A stretch of 22,542 nt of DNA, taken from positions 1 through 22,542 of IMG/VR virus record IMGVR_UViG_3300025286_000154; one strand, 5' to 3'. Positions 1,915 through 18,890 of this stretch are shown here, one piece after another. The stretch comes from a virus. The notes beneath the pieces were generated by a model. That model did not search any database. It was not told the DNA's origin and was given only the letters and a program-made list of their open reading frames with translations. A program made the position numbers and the translations under genes. Within the stretch, counting starts at the first letter, position 1. Every line of letters starts with the position of its first letter.

Positions 1915-2913
1915 TTATACAACCTTCTCCATAACAGATTTAATTTTACCTGTTTCTAAATCAAAATTTTCTAAAATAGATTGAGAAGTCATTTTTCGTA
2001 ACTTTTCAGCTTCTACCATATCTTGTGGTTCTACTCCAGTATTTTCACGTTGACCAAATAGCATCGTTACATTTATTCTTTTGTTGTCAAACCCCGGAAG
2101 AAAGTTTATATCTGCTGTTTTATGAAACAGATTAGAATCAAACATAACACAACGATTGTACTTATACGGAATATATACAGCTTTTGACTGTTGCTTTTCT
2201 AGATATTCCATAACCTCATTTTTGTCGTCGCCGTTATACCTATTAAAGTCCCAATCAGGAGGAGCACCTGTATCCCAAATCCACATGCCCCCTGTTTTAC
2301 CAATACCCTTTTCTTTGTCGTAGTCTGCATTTGCTTCTGTAGGTGTAATCCAGAAGTTTACATTAACAGCAGCAAAGTCTGCGTGTACATCAATGCCGGG
2401 ACATTTCGACTCATACTTAAACGCCCACATCTGAGCTAGATTACGTTTGTTAGTCGTATTAAATATATCGGGTAGGTTCTGCACCATCTCCAAAGCTAAT
2501 GTTTCTAAAGCTTGTGGTGTAAATCCATTTTGTCGAAAGGCACCTAAGTATCCTCTGCCATAGATTGTATTCCAGAATGGAAACTCAAGACAGTAGTTCT
2601 TTAGTTTCTGCAGTGCTTCCAGATTCATAAAGTCATCAATGACTACAATGTTTGGTTGTGTCTTGTAGTAATTTTTTGAAATGACATCAAAGGGAAGTTT
2701 TAAATTTAATGCTTCCTCATGCTGATGATGGTATGGAAGTGAAAGACGCCCCGTATTTAGTAACCATAAAAGATGCCCGATATCATGTGCTTCCTTCATA
2801 TGAAGCATGTGATCCTTGAAAGGCTGGTCATTAGAATTTTCTAGCGGATTGTATTCTTTCTTTGTTTCTGTCTTTTCTGTTTTAGCTTTCGCTCTACGTT
2901 CTTTACGGTTCAT
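1915..2913 (-). CDS. 2-oxoglutarate/Fe(II)-dependent oxygenase
   Basis: The 332-residue protein has a Lys/Arg-rich N-terminus, then a helical segment (residues 32-60), and from about residue 88 a jelly-roll oxygenase fold. The iron ligands are H177-x-D179 (VHADFAAVNVNFWITP) and distal H264 (NLFHKT). R279 in NKRINVTMLFG is placed to bind the 2-oxoglutarate carboxylate. This is the prolyl-4-hydroxylase-like pattern seen in many marine phage oxygenases of unknown substrate. It would hydroxylate a protein, nucleotide or other small substrate using O2, Fe(II) and 2OG. It lies 6 nt after the Cys-rich peptide gene and in the same operon as an IscA-like protein. The substrate is unknown. Confidence 0.85.
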   Translation of the reverse strand: MNRKERRAKAKTEKTETKKEYNPLENSNDQPFKDHMLHMKEAHDIGHLLWLLNTGRLSLPYHHQHEEALNLKLPFDVISKNYYKTQPNIVVIDDFMNLEALQKLKNYCLEFPFWNTIYGRGYLGAFRQNGFTPQALETLALEMVQNLPDIFNTTNKRNLAQMWAFKYESKCPGIDVHADFAAVNVNFWITPTEANADYDKEKGIGKTGGMWIWDTGAPPDWDFNRYNGDDKNEVMEYLEKQQSKAVYIPYKYNRCVMFDSNLFHKTADINFLPGFDNKRINVTMLFGQRENTGVEPQDMVEAEKLRKMTSQSILENFDLETGKIKSVMEKVV

Positions 2914-2919
2914 GTGTAC

Positions 2920-3072
2920 TCACATATCATTATATGCAGAATCGGGAAAACTATTCCACAGCATATCATTTTTAAAGTTTTCATCATGATGGCAATTACA
3001 ATTACAGCTATTACAATTTTGTCCTGTACAAGAACAATCAGGGTTATTACAATTCTTACAAGAGCAAGCCAT
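2920..3072 (-). CDS. 50-aa cysteine-rich peptide, metallothionein-like
   Basis: The frame starts with ATG at 3072, preceded by AAGGA about 8 nt upstream, and ends in TGA six nt before the oxygenase ATG. The first 29 residues hold nine Cys (3, 5, 8, 13, 15, 20, 23, 25, 27) followed by His28-His29. They are arranged as CxC and CxxC steps separated by Asn, Ser, Asp and Lys, which is how metallothioneins clamp Zn, Cu or Cd. The remaining 21 residues are acidic and aromatic (NDMLWNSFPDSAYNDM). It may store or deliver metal, or be a small zinc-binding structural protein. No homologue is recognised; the metal role is inferred from composition alone. Confidence 0.7.
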   Translation of the reverse strand: MACSCKNCNNPDCSCTGQNCNSCNCNCHHDENFKNDMLWNSFPDSAYNDM

Positions 3073-3075
3073 GTT

Positions 3076-3330
3076 TCATTCCTTTATTTTTTGATCAAGA
3101 TATTCCACTACACTTAATTCTTGTGGAACTTTTTGAATATCCAAGTTCTTTTCAGAGGTTACGAGGTTTATAATTAAATTAGTAAGTTTAATTTCACTTT
3201 TTAAAAAATCTAACTTTACTTGTAGCTTTACAAGTTCCTCTTCGTAAAAAGCAATCTCTTTTTCTTTACGTAGCTTTTGTTGAATGACCTCTTCTAAAAA
3301 GATTATATTTTTTGATTCATGTTCACTCAT
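3076..3330 (-). CDS. coiled-coil hypothetical protein (84 aa)
   Basis: The ATG at 3330 overlaps the stop of the small peptide gene upstream as TAATG, so I prefer it to the TTG at 3357. Most of the chain is predicted helical with heptad spacing of Leu, Ile and Val among Lys/Glu (LRKEKEIAFYEEELVKLQ, then LDFLKSEIKL), suggesting a coiled coil. It has no cysteines and no membrane segment. It could be a small structural or assembly protein. Confidence 0.6.
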   Translation of the reverse strand: MSEHESKNIIFLEEVIQQKLRKEKEIAFYEEELVKLQVKLDFLKSEIKLTNLIINLVTSEKNLDIQKVPQELSVVEYLDQKIKE

Positions 3331-3434: not shown

Positions 3435-3767
3435 TTAAAATATATTAAACGATTCTCCACAACCACAACTAGATGTTACATTTGGATTGTTTATGTGTAA
3501 AATCGAACCAAAGATATCTTTTCTATAGTCTATCTCCATACCAATTAAATGCATCAAAGACATACCATCTATAATTAGTTTTTTGTCCTGCTCTATACTT
3601 ATAACCTCGTCGGTAGCTTTATACTCGTTTGCAAAATCCCATTTGTAGGAAAATCCTGCACACCCCCCGCCAGCTACAGATAAATGTATATAGTTTTGTT
3701 TTTCATCATTACATATATTTAATAGATGACTTCTTGCTTTTTCTGTAAGGCTTACGGCATTTGACAT
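3435..3767 (-). CDS. IscA/HesB-like A-type iron-sulfur carrier
   Basis: The 110-residue length and sequence match the A-type carrier family (HesB/IscA/ErpA/SufA). All three conserved cysteines are present: C36 in AGGGCAGF and C101/C103 in the C-terminal SSCGCGESF. These carriers hold iron or Fe-S clusters and pass them to apoproteins. In a phage the partner is unknown. Possible uses are supplying clusters to host or phage enzymes during infection, or carrying metal in the virion. It lies upstream of a Cys-rich peptide and an Fe(II) oxygenase in one operon, so a shared iron theme is plausible but unproven. Confidence 0.9.
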   Translation of the reverse strand: MSNAVSLTEKARSHLLNICNDEKQNYIHLSVAGGGCAGFSYKWDFANEYKATDEVISIEQDKKLIIDGMSLMHLIGMEIDYRKDIFGSILHINNPNVTSSCGCGESFNIF

Positions 3768-3819: not shown

Positions 3820-3936
3820 TTACGTATGTACACGTAACGACGATTTCGGTCCTAGTTTTTTTCTATGTCTTAAACCTTTTTTCTTATGTCTACGTGTTCT
3901 ACGTTTTCTAACTGTATATGTATTTGTAAACTTCAT
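3820..3936 (-). CDS. 38-aa arginine/lysine-rich peptide
   Basis: The ATG at 3936 overlaps the previous TGA as ATGA. Within residues 9-28 the chain is dominated by Arg, Lys and His (VRKRRTRRHKKKGLRHRKK), an arginine-rich motif able to bind RNA or DNA. I do not recognise a family. It might be a packaged nucleic-acid-binding peptide or an RNA-binding regulator. Confidence 0.5.
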   Translation of the reverse strand: MKFTNTYTVRKRRTRRHKKKGLRHRKKLGPKSSLRVHT

Positions 3937-4061
3937 ACTTTCTTTGTCATCTTTGCTTTTTTACCTCTGATCCATGCAGCCTTTTGCTTTGCAGACATTT
4001 TGCTCCAGTTAGCAGGATACTTAAGATGTTTCTTTTTTCCCTTAACAGTAACTACAGGCAT
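3933..4061 (-). CDS. 42-aa basic peptide
   Basis: The ATG at 4061 overlaps the stop of the upstream gene as TAATG, and the TGA overlaps the next start. It reads VTVKGKKKHLKYPANW, then SAKQKAAWIRGKKAKM, with a short amphipathic helix between basic clusters. The tail resembles short marine phage proteins with a KQKAAWI-type ending, but the function is unknown. Confidence 0.55.
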   Translation of the reverse strand: MPVVTVKGKKKHLKYPANWSKMSAKQKAAWIRGKKAKMTKKV

Positions 4062-5577: not shown

Positions 5578-5818
5578 GGTACTATTATACACATATTTCA
5601 GATCGTGTCAAGCATAAAATACATGTATCATAAAATTAATTAACATATGTGGTATTAAGGATACATTAATTGTGTTACATAAGATGCCGTCCTGCCCCTG
5701 TACTAGGAACGGTAAGAAACACGCATCTGTGTAACGCAAGGTGTATATGTATTGTAAGTAATTCTAGTGGTTAACACTTCATTTTCCTGATCTGTGTAGT
5801 TATTCATGCATATATACG

Positions 5819-6051: not shown

Positions 6052-6077
6052 CATAAAATGAAAACCATATCTCGACA

Positions 6078-6094
6078 AGCTCTAGCTAGAGGCT
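6078..6094. repeat. cassette palindrome, copy 1 (variant)
   Basis: CTCTAGCTAGAG lies inside AGC...GGCT. It shares the core of the GCTCTA-NN-TAGAGC palindromes at 6969, 7211, 7721, 8061 and 8821 but has an extra G at the right edge and is not followed by the usual spacer and start codon. Confidence 0.6.
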
Positions 6095-6201
6095 ACCCCC
6101 TACTACCGTAGTGGTCCTTTTCCAATTCCGCACATGAGTTTCGGAACTTCGTTCCTGCAACCGTGCGCTGAATGGCAATCAAATTTATTTTCACCAACCC
6201 C

Positions 6202-6230
6202 TTGACAGTTATCTCTCTATTCCTTACGTG
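6202..6230 (+). promoter_or_regulatory. weak promoter candidate
   Basis: A perfect TTGACA at 6202-6207 is followed 17 nt later by TACGTG, a poor -10. Transcription from here would start inside the hairpin at 6218-6285, so the real start may be elsewhere. Only the -35-like hexamer is solid. Confidence 0.25.
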
Positions 6231-6285
6231 TATCTGCGGTATCTTCGATCTCTTGTGAGAAGATACCTTAGATACACTTGGAATA
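6218..6285 (+). promoter_or_regulatory. leader hairpin 1 with CTTGTGA loop end
   Basis: Three nested perfect arms pair: TATTCC/GGAATA, GTGTATCT/AGATACAC and GGTATCTTC/GAAGATACC, with small internal loops and the loop GATCTCTTGTGA. The gene at 6298 follows after AGGAG and 8 nt. The loop end CTTGTGA and the overall architecture recur at 7459-7509 and 7989-8039 with different stem sequences, which argues for a conserved RNA structure. Confidence 0.7.
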
Positions 6286-6297
6286 GGAGATAGAGAA

Positions 6298-6903
6298 ATG
6301 ACCACCGAAACCACAGTAACCCTCGACCCGACAGAGTACGAAGTACTGATCGAAGATGCCAACGAAGTTGGTGTCGAGTTCGCCAAGCGTGACAAGGCGG
6401 ATCGTGGCAGGTTCAAGCGTGATATCAAACCCGATGGGTTTGGTGTTCGATTGGCTCAAGTGCAGATTGCTGCAAGAGCAGCACTTAAGGTCGAGAGGCT
6501 CCCATCAGCTACGCTGAAGCAGCTAGGCATTGACAAGGTTTCCTCCGCTCTGCGGAGTGAGTGGGTTTGGTTCGTTCAAAACGAAACCGAAGCGAGAGAG
6601 TTCATCAAAGCCTCAAAGAAAGGCTTCACGAATGTATCGGCACTCAAGACCGCTATGGCGAAGGCTGCTAAAGCAGCGGAGAAAGCTGAAGCATCCACTG
6701 AAAGTGAGAGCGAGAGTGAAGCCACCGAAGGTGAAGCATCAGAGAATGCAACCACCGAAGGTGCAACCCTCGATGTATCAGCTATCGCTGTCGCCATTCA
6801 TGCATTGGCTTCACGTGATGGCAAGTCGGTCTATGGTGTCATCGACGAGATCATCGACCTCTTCGAGGAAACCAATCCTCTGACTTCAGAGATTGCTGCA
6901 TAA
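6298..6903 (+). CDS. hypothetical protein, first gene of the rightward operon (201 aa)
   Basis: A strong AGGAG lies 8 nt before the ATG, directly downstream of hairpin 1, so it is probably highly and early expressed. Residues 1-120 look like a folded alpha/beta domain (DPTEYEVLIEDANEVGVEFA). Residues 120-160 are an Ala/Lys helix followed by a Ser/Glu/Thr-rich acidic linker containing a repeated TEG[EA] unit. The last 45 residues are hydrophobic and helical (VSAIAVAIHALAS, then VIDEIIDLFEE). I recognise no family. The acidic linker between two domains suggests a scaffold, DNA mimic or regulatory protein, which is inference only. Confidence 0.75.
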   Translation: MTTETTVTLDPTEYEVLIEDANEVGVEFAKRDKADRGRFKRDIKPDGFGVRLAQVQIAARAALKVERLPSATLKQLGIDKVSSALRSEWVWFVQNETEAREFIKASKKGFTNVSALKTAMAKAAKAAEKAEASTESESESEATEGEASENATTEGATLDVSAIAVAIHALASRDGKSVYGVIDEIIDLFEETNPLTSEIAA

Positions 6904-6915
6904 GGTCGCTTCTGC

Positions 6916-6945
6916 TAGGCTGGTATCACCTTCGGTGCCAGCCTA
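6916..6945 (+). terminator. strong hairpin, possible terminator or processing site
   Basis: TAGGCTGG pairs with CCAGCCTA, and inner CACC pairs with GGTG around TTC, with a three-base TAT bulge. It starts 13 nt after the stop of the first gene. No U tract follows, so it may be a weak attenuator or an RNA-stabilising hairpin rather than a true intrinsic terminator. Confidence 0.45.
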
Positions 6946-6968
6946 TCGGTGGCAATCTTGCCAACTAA

Positions 6969-6982
6969 GCTCTACGTAGAGC
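6969..6982. repeat. cassette palindrome, copy 2
   Basis: GCTCTACGTAGAGC is a perfect 14-bp palindrome. It is followed by CTAACATCAACGGAGTTGA, which contains the SD sequence of the gene at 7006. Confidence 0.75.
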
Positions 6983-7005
6983 CTAACATCAACGGAGTTG
7001 AGCGC

Positions 7006-7221
7006 ATGGCAAAACGACCATTCGGCACATACGATACGCATCGCATTCTGCGTAGCTCATACGGCAGCATCGACGTGATGCCCGATGCGGAAACGCTGGA
7101 GAACAAGCGCATTGCATGGCGAGCGGATGTACATAATGCTCGTGCCATGCAAAAGTGGGAACACGAGCAGATGATTGCTCGTATGCGAAGCAGGATTGCT
7201 TCACTCAAAAGCTCTAGCTAG
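7006..7221 (+). CDS. small hypothetical protein of the cassette array (71 aa)
   Basis: The frame is open to GTG at 6949, but the ATG at 7006 has GGAG 8 nt upstream within the conserved cassette leader, which decides the start. The chain is basic and helical, with Arg/Met-rich C-terminal repeats (MIARMRSRIASLKSSS). The final Ser-Ser-Ser-stop is encoded by the next palindrome, so the repeat supplies the stop codon. There is no known family. Confidence 0.65.
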   Translation: MAKRPFGTYDTHRILRSSYGSIDVMPDAETLENKRIAWRADVHNARAMQKWEHEQMIARMRSRIASLKSSS

Positions 7222-7224
7222 AGC
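7211..7224. repeat. cassette palindrome, copy 3
   Basis: GCTCTAGCTAGAGC, a perfect palindrome. Its TAG ends the gene at 7006-7221, and CTAACATCGGAGTTGAAACG then leads to the next ATG. Confidence 0.75.
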
Positions 7225-7244
7225 CTAACATCGGAGTTGAAACG

Positions 7245-7451
7245 ATGATTAATTACGTGTGCGAAGAATGTGGTGGTGAGGATATTCGCGTTAACGCCGA
7301 TGTTACGTGGAGCAAAGAGGAGCAGCGTTGGACTGTCGTGGAGATATTTTTTGAGCAGGATAACGGTGCCATGTGTGAGTCTTGTGGTGACGAGCGCCAT
7401 ATAGGTGTTTACTCGTATGGTGACACTGGTGTGGTTTCTCCAGCCTTTTAG
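7245..7451 (+). CDS. zinc-ribbon-like small protein (68 aa)
   Basis: Two CxxC knuckles, C6-E-E-C9 and C44-E-S-C47, are separated by about 35 residues, the usual layout of a single-zinc ribbon. The segment between them is acidic and beta-rich. The conserved GGAGTTGA leader lies just upstream of the ATG. Such proteins often bind nucleic acid or host enzymes. The specific role is unknown. Hairpin 2 follows eight bases after the stop. Confidence 0.7.
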   Translation: MINYVCEECGGEDIRVNADVTWSKEEQRWTVVEIFFEQDNGAMCESCGDERHIGVYSYGDTGVVSPAF

Positions 7452-7458
7452 TTGTATA

Positions 7459-7509
7459 GTATACCTAGTGTTTCCTTGAACACTTGTGAAAGGAAACACG
7501 TAGGTATAC
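7459..7509 (+). promoter_or_regulatory. leader hairpin 2 with CTTGTGA loop end
   Basis: Outer arms GTATACCTA/TAGGTATAC and inner arms TGTTTCCTT/AAGGAAACA pair perfectly around GAACACTTGTG(A). It sits between the genes at 7245 and 7529, upstream of GAGGAG and an ATG. The outer arm is almost the same as in hairpin 3; the inner arm differs on both sides in a compensating way. Confidence 0.75.
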
Positions 7510-7528
7510 ATATAGAGGAGCAAATGAG

Positions 7529-7717
7529 ATGAATAAAGATATCATGATCGGTGCTGGATTTGGTGATGCTATCGCTCGTGTGGAGCGTGGTTCATGTGCC
7601 ATGTGCAACACAACGGTTCGCATGGAGGATTTCACAGATGAAATCAGTGTGCGAGAATTTGGCATCAGCGGCATGTGCCAATCATGTCAGAATGACATGT
7701 TCGGAGAGGACGAGTAG
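7529..7717 (+). CDS. zinc-ribbon-like phage protein (62 aa)
   Basis: C23-A-M-C26 and C50-Q-S-C53 flank a conserved-looking segment (FTDEISVREFGISGMC). I have seen this DE-S-REF-ISG-C pattern in many small phage proteins with paired CxxC, whose function is not established. AGAGGAG lies about 9 nt before the ATG, immediately after hairpin 2, suggesting hairpin-linked control of its translation or mRNA stability. Confidence 0.75.
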   Translation: MNKDIMIGAGFGDAIARVERGSCAMCNTTVRMEDFTDEISVREFGISGMCQSCQNDMFGEDE

Positions 7718-7720
7718 CTA

Positions 7721-7734
7721 GCTCTACCTAGAGC
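7721..7734. repeat. cassette palindrome, copy 4
   Basis: GCTCTACCTAGAGC, arms perfect with CC centre, three bases after the stop codon of the gene at 7529. It is followed by CAAACTTAACGGAGTTAA and the next ATG. Confidence 0.75.
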
Positions 7735-7755
7735 CAAACTTAACGGAGTTAAATT

Positions 7756-7968
7756 ATGTGTGACAACAAAGTGTCCTATTTCATTCCTAGCGGTTACGAT
7801 GTCCGCGAGGTGTTTACACCATGCGGTTACACAGATGTCTATGGCGAACGCGCCATCTGTGACGAGTGTGCATCTGATAAGCGCAAGATGCGTGACATTC
7901 GCCAGCATGAGGCCAATATTAGGGCCGACAATTGGGCGGCACGTTCTGCCGGTTATGGTGAATTTTAA
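7756..7968 (+). CDS. small cysteine-containing phage protein (70 aa)
   Basis: Four Cys (2, 23, 35, 38) include CDEC near the middle. The pattern FTPCGYTDVYGERAICDEC, followed by an Arg/Asn-rich helix ending ARSAGYGEF, is familiar from short phage proteins of unknown function. A possible Zn site uses C23, C35 and C38. The start has the standard cassette leader with GGAG. Confidence 0.7.
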   Translation: MCDNKVSYFIPSGYDVREVFTPCGYTDVYGERAICDECASDKRKMRDIRQHEANIRADNWAARSAGYGEF

Positions 7969-7988
7969 CCTAACAACGGAAATGTATA

Positions 7989-8039
7989 GTATACCTTACG
8001 TGATCTCTTGAACTTGTGAAAGAGATCACTTAGGTATAC
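7989..8039 (+). promoter_or_regulatory. leader hairpin 3 with CTTGTGA loop end
   Basis: Outer GTATACCT/AGGTATAC and inner GTGATCTCTT/AAGAGATCAC enclose the loop GAACTTGTGA. It lies between the genes at 7756 and 8093, followed by the palindrome at 8061. Its upstream flank TGTATAGTATACCT equals that of hairpin 2. Confidence 0.75.
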
Positions 8040-8060
8040 ATACACACAAGGCAATCACAA

Positions 8061-8074
8061 GCTCTACCTAGAGC
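8061..8074. repeat. cassette palindrome, copy 5
   Basis: GCTCTACCTAGAGC, the same as copy 4, followed by CAAACAACGGAGTTGACT and the ATG at 8093. Confidence 0.75.
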
Positions 8075-8092
8075 CAAACAACGGAGTTGACT

Positions 8093-8821
8093 ATGCAATG
8101 TACAGCATCGAACATACCTGCATCTAGCACATGCTACACGCAACCAGATATCACAACGCTAAAAGCTGCCATCGAAATTGGTGGCAAGGTATCAAAAGGC
8201 AACACTAAGATGCCCGGTTCCACGTTTGCACTTGATGCTTTCGAGTGCAACGTAGGATCACGGCTTGCCAATGTCGAGGGTAGCGTATGCTTCAAGTGCT
8301 ATGCTCGACGCATACAAAAGCTGCGTCCATCCGTCAACATGGGATGGGGTAACAATCAAAGCAAAACTGTGGCAACACTGGCGCTTGATCCGACACTGTG
8401 GCAAGACGCTATGGTGTTTCAAATCAACCGCATGGGATATGCGGAGCATAGGTGGCTGGATAGTGGTGACGTTCCAAACGTGCAGTTTCTCGCCAGTGTC
8501 TGCGAAGTAGCACGGCAGACACCCAATGTGCAGCATTGGTTGCCCACACGTGAGGTCAAAACTCTGCTTGCCTTCATCAAACAATATGGTGCGGATCATA
8601 TACCAACTAATCTCAACATTCGTGTGTCGGCACCAATGGTGAACGACAAACCTTTGAGTGCATTTGACAATGTGCCACAAGTTACGACAAGCACAGTGCA
8701 CGACAAGCACAACGTGCCACATGGTCACACTTGCCCAGCACGTACTCAAGGCAATGCATGTGGAGATTGTCGAGCATGTTGGTCAAGTGATGTTGCCAAT
8801 GTATCCTATCCTATTCACTAG
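8093..8821 (+). CDS. GP88-like cysteine protein
   Basis: The 242-residue protein starts at ATG 8093 (GGAG 6 nt upstream), not at the TTG at 8087. It matches the pattern I associate with the phage Gene product 88 family (PF17338): KMPGSTFALDAFECNVG, then C66-F-K-C69-YA, HRWLDSGDV, HWLPTRE, IRVSAPM, and a C-terminal cluster C214...C223-G-D-C226-R-A-C229-W. Seven conserved-looking cysteines suggest a Zn or Fe-S centre. The SGD, LPTRE and IRVSA segments recall the barrel strands of DUF5131/radical-SAM-like proteins, but the canonical CxxxCxxC is missing. The biochemical role is unknown. It is the longest gene of the palindrome-bounded array. Confidence 0.75.
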   Translation: MQCTASNIPASSTCYTQPDITTLKAAIEIGGKVSKGNTKMPGSTFALDAFECNVGSRLANVEGSVCFKCYARRIQKLRPSVNMGWGNNQSKTVATLALDPTLWQDAMVFQINRMGYAEHRWLDSGDVPNVQFLASVCEVARQTPNVQHWLPTREVKTLLAFIKQYGADHIPTNLNIRVSAPMVNDKPLSAFDNVPQVTTSTVHDKHNVPHGHTCPARTQGNACGDCRACWSSDVANVSYPIH

Positions 8822-8834
8822 CTCTAGGTAGAGC
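8821..8834. repeat. cassette palindrome, copy 6
   Basis: GCTCTAGGTAGAGC, with GG centre. Its first base completes the TAG stop of the GP88-like gene. CAAACATAACGGAGGAAACT and the ATG at 8855 follow. This is the last copy of the array. Confidence 0.75.
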
Positions 8835-8854
8835 CAAACATAACGGAGGAAACT

Positions 8855-10072: not shown

Positions 10073-10288
10073 ATGTACTCAGTAAGGTTAATACTCACAA
10101 AGGACGATACTATGGTTAGGGAGAGTGAGAGAAAGGATTGGTATGGTATTGTAGATAATGAAGGTATCATAGTAGTAGACAACATCTGTGCAGTCTCAAG
10201 TATCATCTTGACCACATGCGATAAGAAACTCTATGATAATGTAAACGCTGCATTGACAGAGATTAAGAGATTGGGAGAACTAAGGTGA
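10073..10288 (+). CDS. small hypothetical protein containing an inverted fragment of the 15958 gene (71 aa)
   Basis: ATG at 10073 follows AGGA by about 7 nt. The chain looks like a small beta/alpha protein (MYSVRLILTKDDTMV, DNEGIIVVDNICAVSS, then a helix). Positions 10175-10219, encoding NICAVSSIILTTC, match the reverse complement of 16017-16061 at 40 of 45 bases. Part of this gene is therefore related to the antisense strand of another gene in the window. Whether this is recombination debris or a functional antisense segment is open. Confidence 0.55.
   Translation: MYSVRLILTKDDTMVRESERKDWYGIVDNEGIIVVDNICAVSSIILTTCDKKLYDNVNAALTEIKRLGELR
10175..10219 (+). repeat. inverted repeat arm, partner at 16017-16061
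   Basis: 45 bases match the reverse complement of 16017-16061 with five mismatches. The longest uninterrupted matches are CATCTGTGCAGTCTC and AGTATCATCTTGAC. Confidence 0.8.
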
Positions 10289-13035: not shown

Positions 13036-13106
13036 TGCACGATTTTATGTTAGGGTTTGCGTGGGCGGTGGGGTTAATCCTCATCGCCTTCGCCTTTATT
13101 TTATAG
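13035..13106 (+). CDS. 23-aa membrane peptide, copy A
   Basis: GTG at 13035 overlaps the DUF932 stop (TAGTG). The peptide is MHDFMLGFAWA plus GLILIAFAFIL, a single short membrane span. The same N-terminal coding sequence recurs at 13311-13397. Without a good SD sequence, the ATG at 13047 is an alternative start. Being one of two copies makes it more credible than its length would suggest. Confidence 0.45.
   Translation: MHDFMLGFAWAVGLILIAFAFIL
13036..13067 (+). repeat. 32-bp perfect direct repeat, second copy at 13312-13343
   Basis: The two copies are identical over 32 bases and remain similar for about 30 more (through CTCATCGCCT). They encode the start of both small membrane peptides and are 276 bp apart, indicating a local duplication. 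Confidence 0.85.
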
Positions 13107-13310: not shown

Positions 13311-13397
13311 ATGCACGATTTTATGTTAGGGTTTGCGTGGGCGATGTGGTGTGCACTCATCGCCTACGCAGTTGCTTCATGTATTGCGGGAGTGTGA
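13311..13397 (+). CDS. 28-aa membrane peptide, copy B
   Basis: It shares MHDFMLGFAWA with copy A (13035) and then diverges: MWCALIAYAVASCIAGV. One membrane span, two Cys. GGAG from the nine-codon remnant lies 7 nt upstream. Function unknown. Confidence 0.5.
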   Translation: MHDFMLGFAWAMWCALIAYAVASCIAGV

Positions 13398-15813: not shown

Positions 15814-15961
15814 ACAATTGATATCTTATCTGGTAGAAAGAACAAAGACGCTAGTTATAAAAATTGAAAATAGAATGGAGCCTTGTGCCAATGACACTTA
15901 CCTTACTGGAGGTAAGCAAATAAAAGATTTCTATATTCACACAGACACGGAAGAAAAATGA
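15806..15961 (+). CDS. 51-aa hypothetical peptide
   Basis: GGAG lies 7 nt before the ATG at 15806. The frame overlaps the previous gene by 8 nt and the next as ATGA. Basic helix (IKQLISYLVERTKTLVIKIENR) followed by a polar tail. Not recognised. Confidence 0.5.
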   Translation: MIKQLISYLVERTKTLVIKIENRMEPCANDTYLTGGKQIKDFYIHTDTEEK

Positions 15962-16518
15962 ACATCTTTAGGCTAAGTGACGATCCACAAGAATGTGCGG
16001 AGATGCACTGTGACAAGCACGTTGTCAAGATGATACTGGAGACTGCACAGATGCTATCTACAGCGTGGCGTATGACAGACAGTAGCAGTGAGTATGCGAA
16101 TAAGCACGGCATGTATAGAATGGCTCACAAAAATCATCCATCTACTGTGTGGGTACGGCATGGTATTCTCAACTATATTTGGACACGCAGATTGTTTGAG
16201 CATCTGTGCAAGGAGTACACACACCGCTATGGCAAGCACCATGCAAGTGAGCGTATGCGGGAGGCTTTTGCGTATGATGTGCCAGACGAAACAAGTATTG
16301 TAAAACCACCAATACCCTTTCCTCAGTGTATGCCTGACCAGTACAAGGTCGAGGGTGATCCCGTTGCTGCATACCGTAACTACTACAAGGGAGAGAAAGC
16401 ATACTTCGCTAGGTGGAATAAAGGCAGAGCGTCACCCGAATGGTGGGACGATGACATGCAGAACTTTGTTAAACACTTTGTGACAACGGAGGAGTTGTTA
16501 AGTAGTGTAGGAGAATAG
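15958..16518 (+). CDS. conserved hypothetical protein with DKHVVKMILETAQ motif (186 aa)
   Basis: I recognise the pattern NIFRLSDDP, CDKHVVKMILETAQMLSTAW, NHPSTVWVR and RNYYKGEK as a protein common in marine and T4-like phages, but I know no assigned function. It is rich in His, Tyr and Trp. The conserved Cys19-Asp-Lys-His22 plus several His could bind metal. It sits between integrase and primase. The segment encoding KHVVKMILETAQMLS has an inverted copy in the gene at 10073. Confidence 0.65.
   Translation: MNIFRLSDDPQECAEMHCDKHVVKMILETAQMLSTAWRMTDSSSEYANKHGMYRMAHKNHPSTVWVRHGILNYIWTRRLFEHLCKEYTHRYGKHHASERMREAFAYDVPDETSIVKPPIPFPQCMPDQYKVEGDPVAAYRNYYKGEKAYFARWNKGRASPEWWDDDMQNFVKHFVTTEELLSSVGE
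16017..16061 (-). repeat. inverted repeat arm, partner at 10175-10219
   Basis: The reverse complement matches 10175-10219 at 40 of 45 positions. It lies inside the most conserved-looking motif of the 15958 gene, suggesting this copy is the original. Confidence 0.8.
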
Positions 16519-17287: not shown

Positions 17288-18501
17288 CTCTTGTACGATC
17301 CTTAATGGACAAGGAGTTCTACGACGATCACAGAGGGGCGAGGTGTCCCGACAGATTGTTTAGTAAGGACATTCGGAAGATCAAACATGCACTTGATGTG
17401 GCTATGGAGAAGTATAGTCGCACCGTTACACCAGATGAGATAGAGGCGTTGTTCATGTCGGGCAACCCCTCTATGACCACAGCACAGAAGCAAGCGTATG
17501 GTGATTTGTTTCATAGAATAAAACGTGAGGCACCGTTAGGCAAAGACGTAGCACAGGAGGTGTTATCCAAACTGTTTCAGCAGGTGGTGGGTGAAGAGGT
17601 TGCGAATCTAGGTTTTGATTATGTCAACGGCACACGTGCAACTCTTGAGCCACTACGTGAGTTGCTTGACAGATACACGGATGACTTCATGCCTGACCTG
17701 CACGTGGAGTGGGATGACATATCCATTGATAACCTGCTTGCACAGAACGATCTGGAGACACGGTGGAAGTTTAACATACCTACGTTGTGCACAAAGGTAG
17801 AGGGTGTCAACGCTGGTCATTTGGTTGAGATAGGTGCACGATCTAATGTAGGTAAGACATCCTTTCATGCAAGCATGATTGCTTCTCCAAAAGGCTTTGC
17901 GGCACAAGGTGCGAACTGTATGGTGCTGTGCAATGAGGAAGGATCACCACGTGTGGGTGCACGATATCTACAGGCTTGCACTGGTATGACATTGATGCAG
18001 ATAAAACAAAACCCGAAAGCTGCATGGGATATGTATGGAAAGATCAGAGACAATATCTTTCTTAAGGATGTGACAGGCAAGGACATGGCATGGGTAGAGA
18101 GTGTATGTAAATCATATCGGCCCGACATTGTAGTGTTGGACATGGGTGACAAGTTTGCAACGATGCATGGATTTGCTCGTACAGATGAGGCGTTGAAGGC
18201 TAACGTTGTATATGCAAGACAGATTGCAAAGATGTACGAGTGTGCTATGTTCTATATGTCACAGCTAAATGCAGAAGCAGAGGGCAAGATAACATTGAAC
18301 CAATCTATGATGGAGGGTAGTAGAACAGGTAAGGCAGCGGAAGCTGATCTTATGATACTGATTGCGAAGAACCCACCTATAGAGGGAGAGGATGAGGACA
18401 GTTCACAACGGCACTTGAATGTTGTAAAAAATAAACTGTCTGGCTGGCACGGTACAATTCATTGTGAGTTGGATTGGAAAACAGCAAGGTACATAGCATG
18501 A
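17278..18501 (+). CDS. replicative DNA helicase, RecA-like
   Basis: The 407-residue protein has an N-terminal helical region (1-140). Its RecA/DnaB-type ATPase core has Walker A G186ARSNVGKT194 with K193, a catalytic-type Glu (CNEEGSPRVGAR, about residue 220), Walker B IVVLD288, and a C-terminal ELDW strand. It matches the helicase half of T7 gp4 and would unwind DNA ahead of the phage polymerase. The motif MEGSRTGKAAEADLMI is the usual H3-like sensor region. The start overlaps the primase end. The stop overlaps the SET-domain gene as ATGA. Confidence 0.85.
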   Translation: MELALVRSLMDKEFYDDHRGARCPDRLFSKDIRKIKHALDVAMEKYSRTVTPDEIEALFMSGNPSMTTAQKQAYGDLFHRIKREAPLGKDVAQEVLSKLFQQVVGEEVANLGFDYVNGTRATLEPLRELLDRYTDDFMPDLHVEWDDISIDNLLAQNDLETRWKFNIPTLCTKVEGVNAGHLVEIGARSNVGKTSFHASMIASPKGFAAQGANCMVLCNEEGSPRVGARYLQACTGMTLMQIKQNPKAAWDMYGKIRDNIFLKDVTGKDMAWVESVCKSYRPDIVVLDMGDKFATMHGFARTDEALKANVVYARQIAKMYECAMFYMSQLNAEAEGKITLNQSMMEGSRTGKAAEADLMILIAKNPPIEGEDEDSSQRHLNVVKNKLSGWHGTIHCELDWKTARYIA

Positions 18502-18890
18502 ATAAAAGAGCATTACCTATAGGATTTACTATTAACAAGTCTACTATACATGGGTTGGGTTTGTTTGCCGAAAAGGATTTTGTTGATGATGATACAATAG
18601 CTACTCATGTATACCATCCACATCTAGGCTGGCTACGAACAGCACTAGGTGCGTTCATAAACCACAGTCAAACGCCAAATTGTATAACAACAGAGGACGA
18701 GGTTTTTCTAAAAACTTCAACGGCAATTGAGTCTTTTAATTTATCGTGGGTTTTGTTAGGAACAAGAGATAACCTTGACAGAGGCCCATCAGTTAGAGTA
18801 AGATACTTACTGCCTCGTGCACCTATACATGCGGGAGATGAGATAACACTATTATATGGAGACAAAAAATACCATGACCTTAAACGATGA
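18498..18890 (+). CDS. SET-domain protein, putative lysine methyltransferase
   Basis: The ATG at 18498 overlaps the helicase stop. An upstream in-frame ATG at 18474 is less likely. The 130 residues cover a minimal SET domain. It has TIHGLGLFAEKDF with the G19-x-G21 SAM-binding turn, FINHSQTPNC with N55-H56 and N61 (the pseudoknot that binds SAM), VRYLLPRAPIHAGDEITLLYG with E115 and Y120 matching the end of the fold. It could methylate a host or phage protein. There is no target evidence. The position inside the replication operon suggests a substrate at the fork or a chromatin-like protein, which is inference. Confidence 0.8.
   Translation: MNKRALPIGFTINKSTIHGLGLFAEKDFVDDDTIATHVYHPHLGWLRTALGAFINHSQTPNCITTEDEVFLKTSTAIESFNLSWVLLGTRDNLDRGPSVRVRYLLPRAPIHAGDEITLLYGDKKYHDLKR

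Follow-up and report, generated by a model that had tools for sequence, protein, structure and literature searches.

The complete IMG/VR record of an HMO-2011-type podovirus analysed here (22,542 bases, further called the window) contains at positions 2920 to 3072 of the minus strand a gene for a 50-residue Cys-rich peptide, which is a real and conserved small protein gene, with purifying selection acting on its nine Cys and on one His. By analogy with known metallothioneins, and with a probability that we put at roughly two in three, its product would be a cytosolic metallothionein-like peptide that is made during infection and that buffers or passes on metal or thiols through Zn(II)- or Cu(I)-thiolate binding. 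Phage genes for iron-sulfur assembly are already known; for a phage-encoded metallothionein we found no prior report in the open literature. Should zinc or copper binding be borne out, metal control would join the functions carried by abundant ocean phages; the HMO-2011-type phages are described as dominant and widespread in the sea (PMC9038755). As the family is short, well defined and easily expressed, the claim can be tested directly.

The phage was identified by its DNA polymerase, which shares 64% identity over 690 amino acids (full length) with the polymerase of Puniceispirillum phage HMO-2011 and 53-62% with those of the Roseobacter phages CRP-1, CRP-345, CRP-603, CRP-207 and CRP-2, and the window is therefore assigned to an HMO-2011-type podovirus. 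This family A polymerase carries the CxxCxGxG insert that serves as a criterion for the type, and an HMO-2011-like polymerase is also present in four long relatives that share the putative oxygenase gene adjoining the Cys peptide gene. The peptide gene belongs to a leftward block, in which it sits between genes for an Fe-S carrier and a coiled-coil-like protein on the one side and lysis-side genes on the other. The block further encodes, all on the minus strand, a small basic protein of 42 residues upstream (3933 to 4061), a probable membrane protein of 75 residues that is hydrophobic by inspection and follows the oxygenase as the next gene (1685 to 1912), and a protein of 122 residues (1214 to 1582) that matches phrog_6637, a family of unknown function, and that we read as holin-like. 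An earlier reading made from the letters of this DNA (the sequence-only reading) had the peptide expressed together with the lysis genes; the genes do run in the same direction, and it is this common direction that suggests joint expression.

The translation of the minus-strand ORF (MACSCKNCNNPDCSCTGQNCNSCNCNCHHDENFKNDMLWNSFPDSAYNDM) has Cys at positions 3, 5, 8, 13, 15, 20, 23, 25 and 27 and His at positions 28 and 29, which bears out the nine Cys in CxC and CxxC steps within the first 29 residues that had first drawn attention to it. The good Shine-Dalgarno (SD) sequence claimed for it is likewise present, an SD-like AAAGGAAT preceding the ATG, whereas the remark that the frame is too short for usual gene callers does not hold, 153 nt being long enough. 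The gene starts 3 nt after the upstream coiled-coil gene and is followed after 6 nt by the downstream gene (1915-2913); in most loci, start and SD sequence lie 1-3 nt after the coiled-coil gene. With 5.6 kDa, a pI of 4.4 and a GRAVY of -0.93, the peptide is small and hydrophilic; Cys makes up 18% of it overall, all nine falling within 25 residues. Because it is hydrophilic and by inspection lacks a signal peptide, it is expected to be cytosolic and reduced. Its AlphaFold model is of low confidence (pLDDT 51.5), which fits an apo-metallothionein and proves nothing. An ORF on the plus strand (2914-3117) that overlaps the peptide gene was rejected, the opposite-strand frames of relatives being interrupted by stops.

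When the window was simulated by first-order Markov copies, 0 of 200 contained an ATG-started ORF of 30-80 amino acids with nine Cys in its first 29 residues; with no limits on start or length, a stretch of 29 residues with nine Cys turned up in some frame of 1 of 60 copies, so that composition alone is not decisive. The question of chance is settled by conservation, since 18 distinct variants in marine viral contigs, 39-66% identical to the window peptide, keep all nine Cys. Loss of this Cys pattern among related phages was one of the outcomes by which the sequence-only reading would have given up its idea, and the idea survived the check. In the alignment of these variants no column except those of the nine Cys is invariant, N7, G17 and H28 being nearly so. 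Both His residues had been counted as part of the signature; His28 is retained in 17 of the 18 variants and His29 is not conserved, its position being taken elsewhere by Y, N or S. Loops between the Cys vary in length (C-x4-C or C-x5-C; C-x2-C to C-x7-C), one variant (L030) has 10 Cys in 36 residues, and a C-terminal tail, LWxxFxxxxYxDM, which about half of them share and the rest have lost, is probably a dispensable interaction segment. Six loci, 62-100% identical, came from a tblastn-confirmed scan of IMG/VR, and further, more divergent variants were recovered among 63 loci carrying the downstream gene.

As some variants had been obtained with a regular expression that itself required nine Cys, scans with shorter patterns are the fairer test of conservation. 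A DNA pattern covering the first five Cys yielded 13 stretches, which all belong to this family and have the other four Cys and nearly always the His, while a six-Cys pattern brought in two more branches (L410/L415/L422 and L420/L423/L433), whose members likewise have the Cys not named in the pattern and nearly always the His. In the ungapped set, dN is about 0.2-0.36 for the majority of divergent pairs, compared to a dS of about 0.7 to saturation.

The family gave no meaningful match in Pfam, NCBIfam or PHROGs, nor to any PDB chain. A family profile that detects all seven carriers on which it was tried, divergent ones included, found no match in 385 alphaproteobacterial genomes or in 398 genomes across the phylum. 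Among isolated phages, tblastn searches started from three members of the family returned noise only; a match in a Desulfovibrio phage was rejected, there being no comparable Cys-rich gene at that place. No relative was found on plasmids, and the bare nine-Cys DNA pattern gave low-complexity noise among the matches listed for viral and bacterial contigs. The sequence-only reading knew of no described phage metallothionein in such a setting, and our search of published open-access papers found no report of a phage or viral one. The Cys peptide thus illustrates how standard family libraries miss Cys-rich microproteins.

In its broad features the peptide resembles metallothioneins: it is small, contains more than 15% Cys arranged as CxC and CxxC, has few aromatic residues in the metal-binding part, and its Cys stay fixed while other residues and loop lengths drift. 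Fixed Cys with free loop lengths are how cluster ligands behave, which speaks for a metal cluster. The beta domain of vertebrate metallothioneins binds metal as an M3S9 cluster with nine Cys; the phage peptide equals it in the number of Cys over some 30 residues, yet their spacing is different and a PDB sequence search revealed no homology. Among bacterial proteins, SmtA has nine Cys plus His ligands and binds four Zn(II) (PMC10612145, PMC9337993), so three or four ions may be expected for the phage peptide. It shares with SmtA, BmtA and PmtA a length of about 50-55 residues, nine Cys plus His, the CxC/CxxC steps and a CxCxxC start. It differs from them in having neither the SmtA Cys spacing nor the zinc-finger half of YCCxxCAxGH type, which is absent from all 18 variants, and in having been found in phages only. 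Moreover, 0 of 16 family members match PF02069 (Metallothio_Pro) even at an E-value of 10, compared to 1.5e-20 for SmtA. The Cys peptide would thus work like a metallothionein and yet lie outside the known bacterial family, its metal binding being proposed by analogy.

A pattern scan of viral contigs confirmed no SmtA-type genes. A metallothionein gene does stand in the phage-deposited record of Microcystis phage MaAM05 (WMU93301.1, annotated as hypothetical; PF02069, 5.6e-12), but its protein is a host-type BmtA unrelated in sequence to the Cys peptide family, and MaAM05 is a doubtful phage precedent because the record has neighbouring fabI and engB genes and may be partly cellular DNA. Within that record (MW495066.1, L398) this unannotated SmtA-type gene occupies 1498-1719.

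If the peptide acts in this way, a host-type (sigma-70-like) promoter would drive its production in the reducing host cytosol, where nine thiols and one imidazole could wrap three or four d10 ions, either Zn(II) or a larger number of Cu(I), in a metal-thiolate cluster. The loaded peptide might then serve during infection as a buffer, store or donor of metal, or as a thiol reserve. It might keep free zinc and copper at safe levels during the breakdown of host proteins, or it might supply zinc to phage zinc proteins, such as the DNA polymerase with its zinc-finger-like CxxCxGxG insert. Both the identity of the metal and the role in buffering or donation are inferred here from chemistry by analogy.

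The immediate upstream neighbour encodes a small coiled-coil-like protein of 84 residues (3076 to 3330, minus strand). All 20 of the 2OG loci that have this gene also have the Cys peptide, adjacent in most, and together with the conservation of the aromatic and acidic tail in about half of the variants this could mean that the peptide is a structural zinc micro-domain, docking on a partner such as the coiled-coil protein and acting by protein contact, with zinc needed for folding only. We consider this unlikely, since members of the coiled-coil family are common in other places where the peptide is absent, and since in the L410 and L420 groups the peptide has no coiled-coil gene next door; moreover, core residues beyond the Cys and three further positions vary freely, unlike those of a binding surface. 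The coiled-coil protein was also rejected as a strict partner, its family being widespread where the Cys peptide is lacking: one scan matched 195 viral loci, often directly behind a large-phage DNA polymerase and with no Cys peptide. As an observation in its own right, this family (L324-L393, apart from the window) is very widespread in marine phages and has no convincing PHROG match.

The other neighbours had led the sequence-only reading to an integrated iron set of storage peptide, cluster carrier and iron enzyme. The carrier it placed some 360 bp upstream in the same operon is there: an A-type Fe-S carrier of the HesB/IscA/ErpA kind, 110 residues long, is encoded in the co-directional block on the minus strand (3435 to 3767; PF01521, 1.8e-16; TIGR00049, 1.2e-27) and its gene ends 362 bp upstream of the peptide gene (3435 versus 3072). 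It retains the central C36 and the terminal C-x-C (C101/C103), and does not reach the equivalog cut-offs of ErpA, IscA or SufA. Fe-S assembly genes (IscU, A-type carrier) have been published for HMO-2011-type metagenomic genomes (PMC9038755) and for other marine viruses (PMC5332604), and the HesB/ErpA gene of the window is of that known kind; the main texts of these two papers make no mention of metallothionein. The Fe(II)/2OG oxygenase claimed 6 nt downstream is correctly spaced and less securely named. This protein of 332 residues (1915 to 2913, minus strand) has the HxD...H iron triad and distal Arg (H177, D179, H264 and R279) invariant in 12 members and is 29% identical to an annotated cyanophage 2OG protein (E 6e-15). 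Its homology is weak, however, with no Pfam match above cut-off and only sub-threshold profile matches (DUF6445 in 11 of 12 members, 2OG-FeII_Oxy_3 in 2 of 12), and its structure model is too poor to use (pLDDT 40.7).

These genes would suit a dedicated handling of Fe or Fe-S, in which the peptide would bind iron or a cluster and, jointly with HesB, deliver it to the adjacent 2OG oxygenase. In favour of this, the window and its close relatives have the gene order HesB, coiled coil, Cys peptide, oxygenase; the peptide of L035 lies 16 nt after HesB, and L410/L422 show the order Cys peptide, 104-residue Cys-rich protein, HesB. We nevertheless find it quite improbable, because the three genes each occur without the others, contrary to the integrated set. 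The 54.5-kb carrier G003 lacks HesB, as do G002, G004 and G005 (24.6- and 26-kb carriers are among those without HesB), about 10 loci have HesB and oxygenase and lack the peptide, and no oxygenase adjoins the peptide in the L410 and L420 groups. Thiolate clusters of metallothionein type favour Zn(II), Cu(I) or Cd(II) over Fe(II), and 2OG enzymes generally draw Fe(II) from the cytosolic pool, both of which count against this iron route as well.

In many lineages the peptide lies 0.9-2.1 kb from the oxygenase; it is followed by the 104-residue Cys-rich protein, HesB and terminase in the L410 context and stands between a glyoxalase-family protein (PF00903, 7e-10) and terminase in the L420 context. 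In the oxygenase tree, the well-supported clade of 20 rows around the window contains 15 testable loci, which are all carriers, and five that are too short to tell. By these distributions, the lineage keeps the Cys peptide gene stably, without tying it to any one neighbour. The metal-related genes around it could be a coincidence in a variable region.

A minus-strand promoter-like sequence, TTGACA-16-TATAAT with 12 of 12 consensus positions, lies upstream of the leftward block at 5584 to 5611, and the same consensus site precedes the block in L002, L004, L012, L015, L024-L026, L030 and L035. A strong promoter-like site before the block and a lineage-restricted small gene are usual for host-takeover genes, and the peptide might thus be an anti-host chelator that takes zinc or copper away from an enzyme or a defence protein of the host; its place between the Fe-S carrier and the lysis-side genes does not readily look like an early-gene region, and we regard this as very unlikely. 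That the ORF is a non-functional product of chance in composition-biased DNA, as the occasional nine Cys in 29 residues of a shuffled copy would allow, is already refuted by 18 conserved variants, a dN below dS and the conserved start and SD sequence. Directly after the consensus-perfect sigma-70 promoter (5611-5584), an inverted repeat (ACACTTTAAATGTTACACTAAAGTGT) was seen, which could be an operator.

The six-Cys scan also yielded a separate nine-Cys peptide of 26 residues (MCENPNCKCENCTCNPCKCTGRDCGC and variants) in seven marine contigs (L401, L404, L412, L425, L426, L429 and L438), in which all nine Cys are kept and a strong SD sequence, AAGGAG, precedes the start. It has the nine Cys in CxC/CxxC steps in common with the window peptide and differs in its half length, spacing and neighbours; it is probably of separate origin and possibly a second metallothionein-like family. 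The example in L404 (reverse strand, 6058-6138) is unannotated, and the peptide is found in two gene contexts, on contigs with genes of large-marine-phage type. BLAST, whose low-complexity filter may mask it, gave no match to this peptide in isolated phages. The existence of this second peptide points to metallothionein-like microproteins in two or more marine phage settings. Whether marine phages evolved their own metallothioneins, apparently more than once, in the form of at least one lineage-specific nine-Cys family of 36-58 residues in HMO-2011-type podoviruses and of the 26-residue peptide in other marine phages, and with these control zinc or copper in the infected cell, is in our judgement an evenly balanced proposition.

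Some further features of the window were recorded. Six dispersed 24-nt repeats (AAGCTCTAnnTAGAGCC...) with a palindrome lie within 6077-8842, mostly between small rightward genes, and are perhaps promoter/operator or RNA-processing sites. A 45-nt inverted repeat with 89% complementarity (10175-10219 and 16017-16061) has one arm inside a pyrimidine dimer glycosylase-like gene (15958-16518), of which the other arm resembles a displaced fragment. A 69-nt direct repeat (13036-13104 and 13312-13380; 81% identical) is located between small genes, and a SET-domain protein (PF00856, 9e-05) is encoded at 18474-18890 in the phage replication region.
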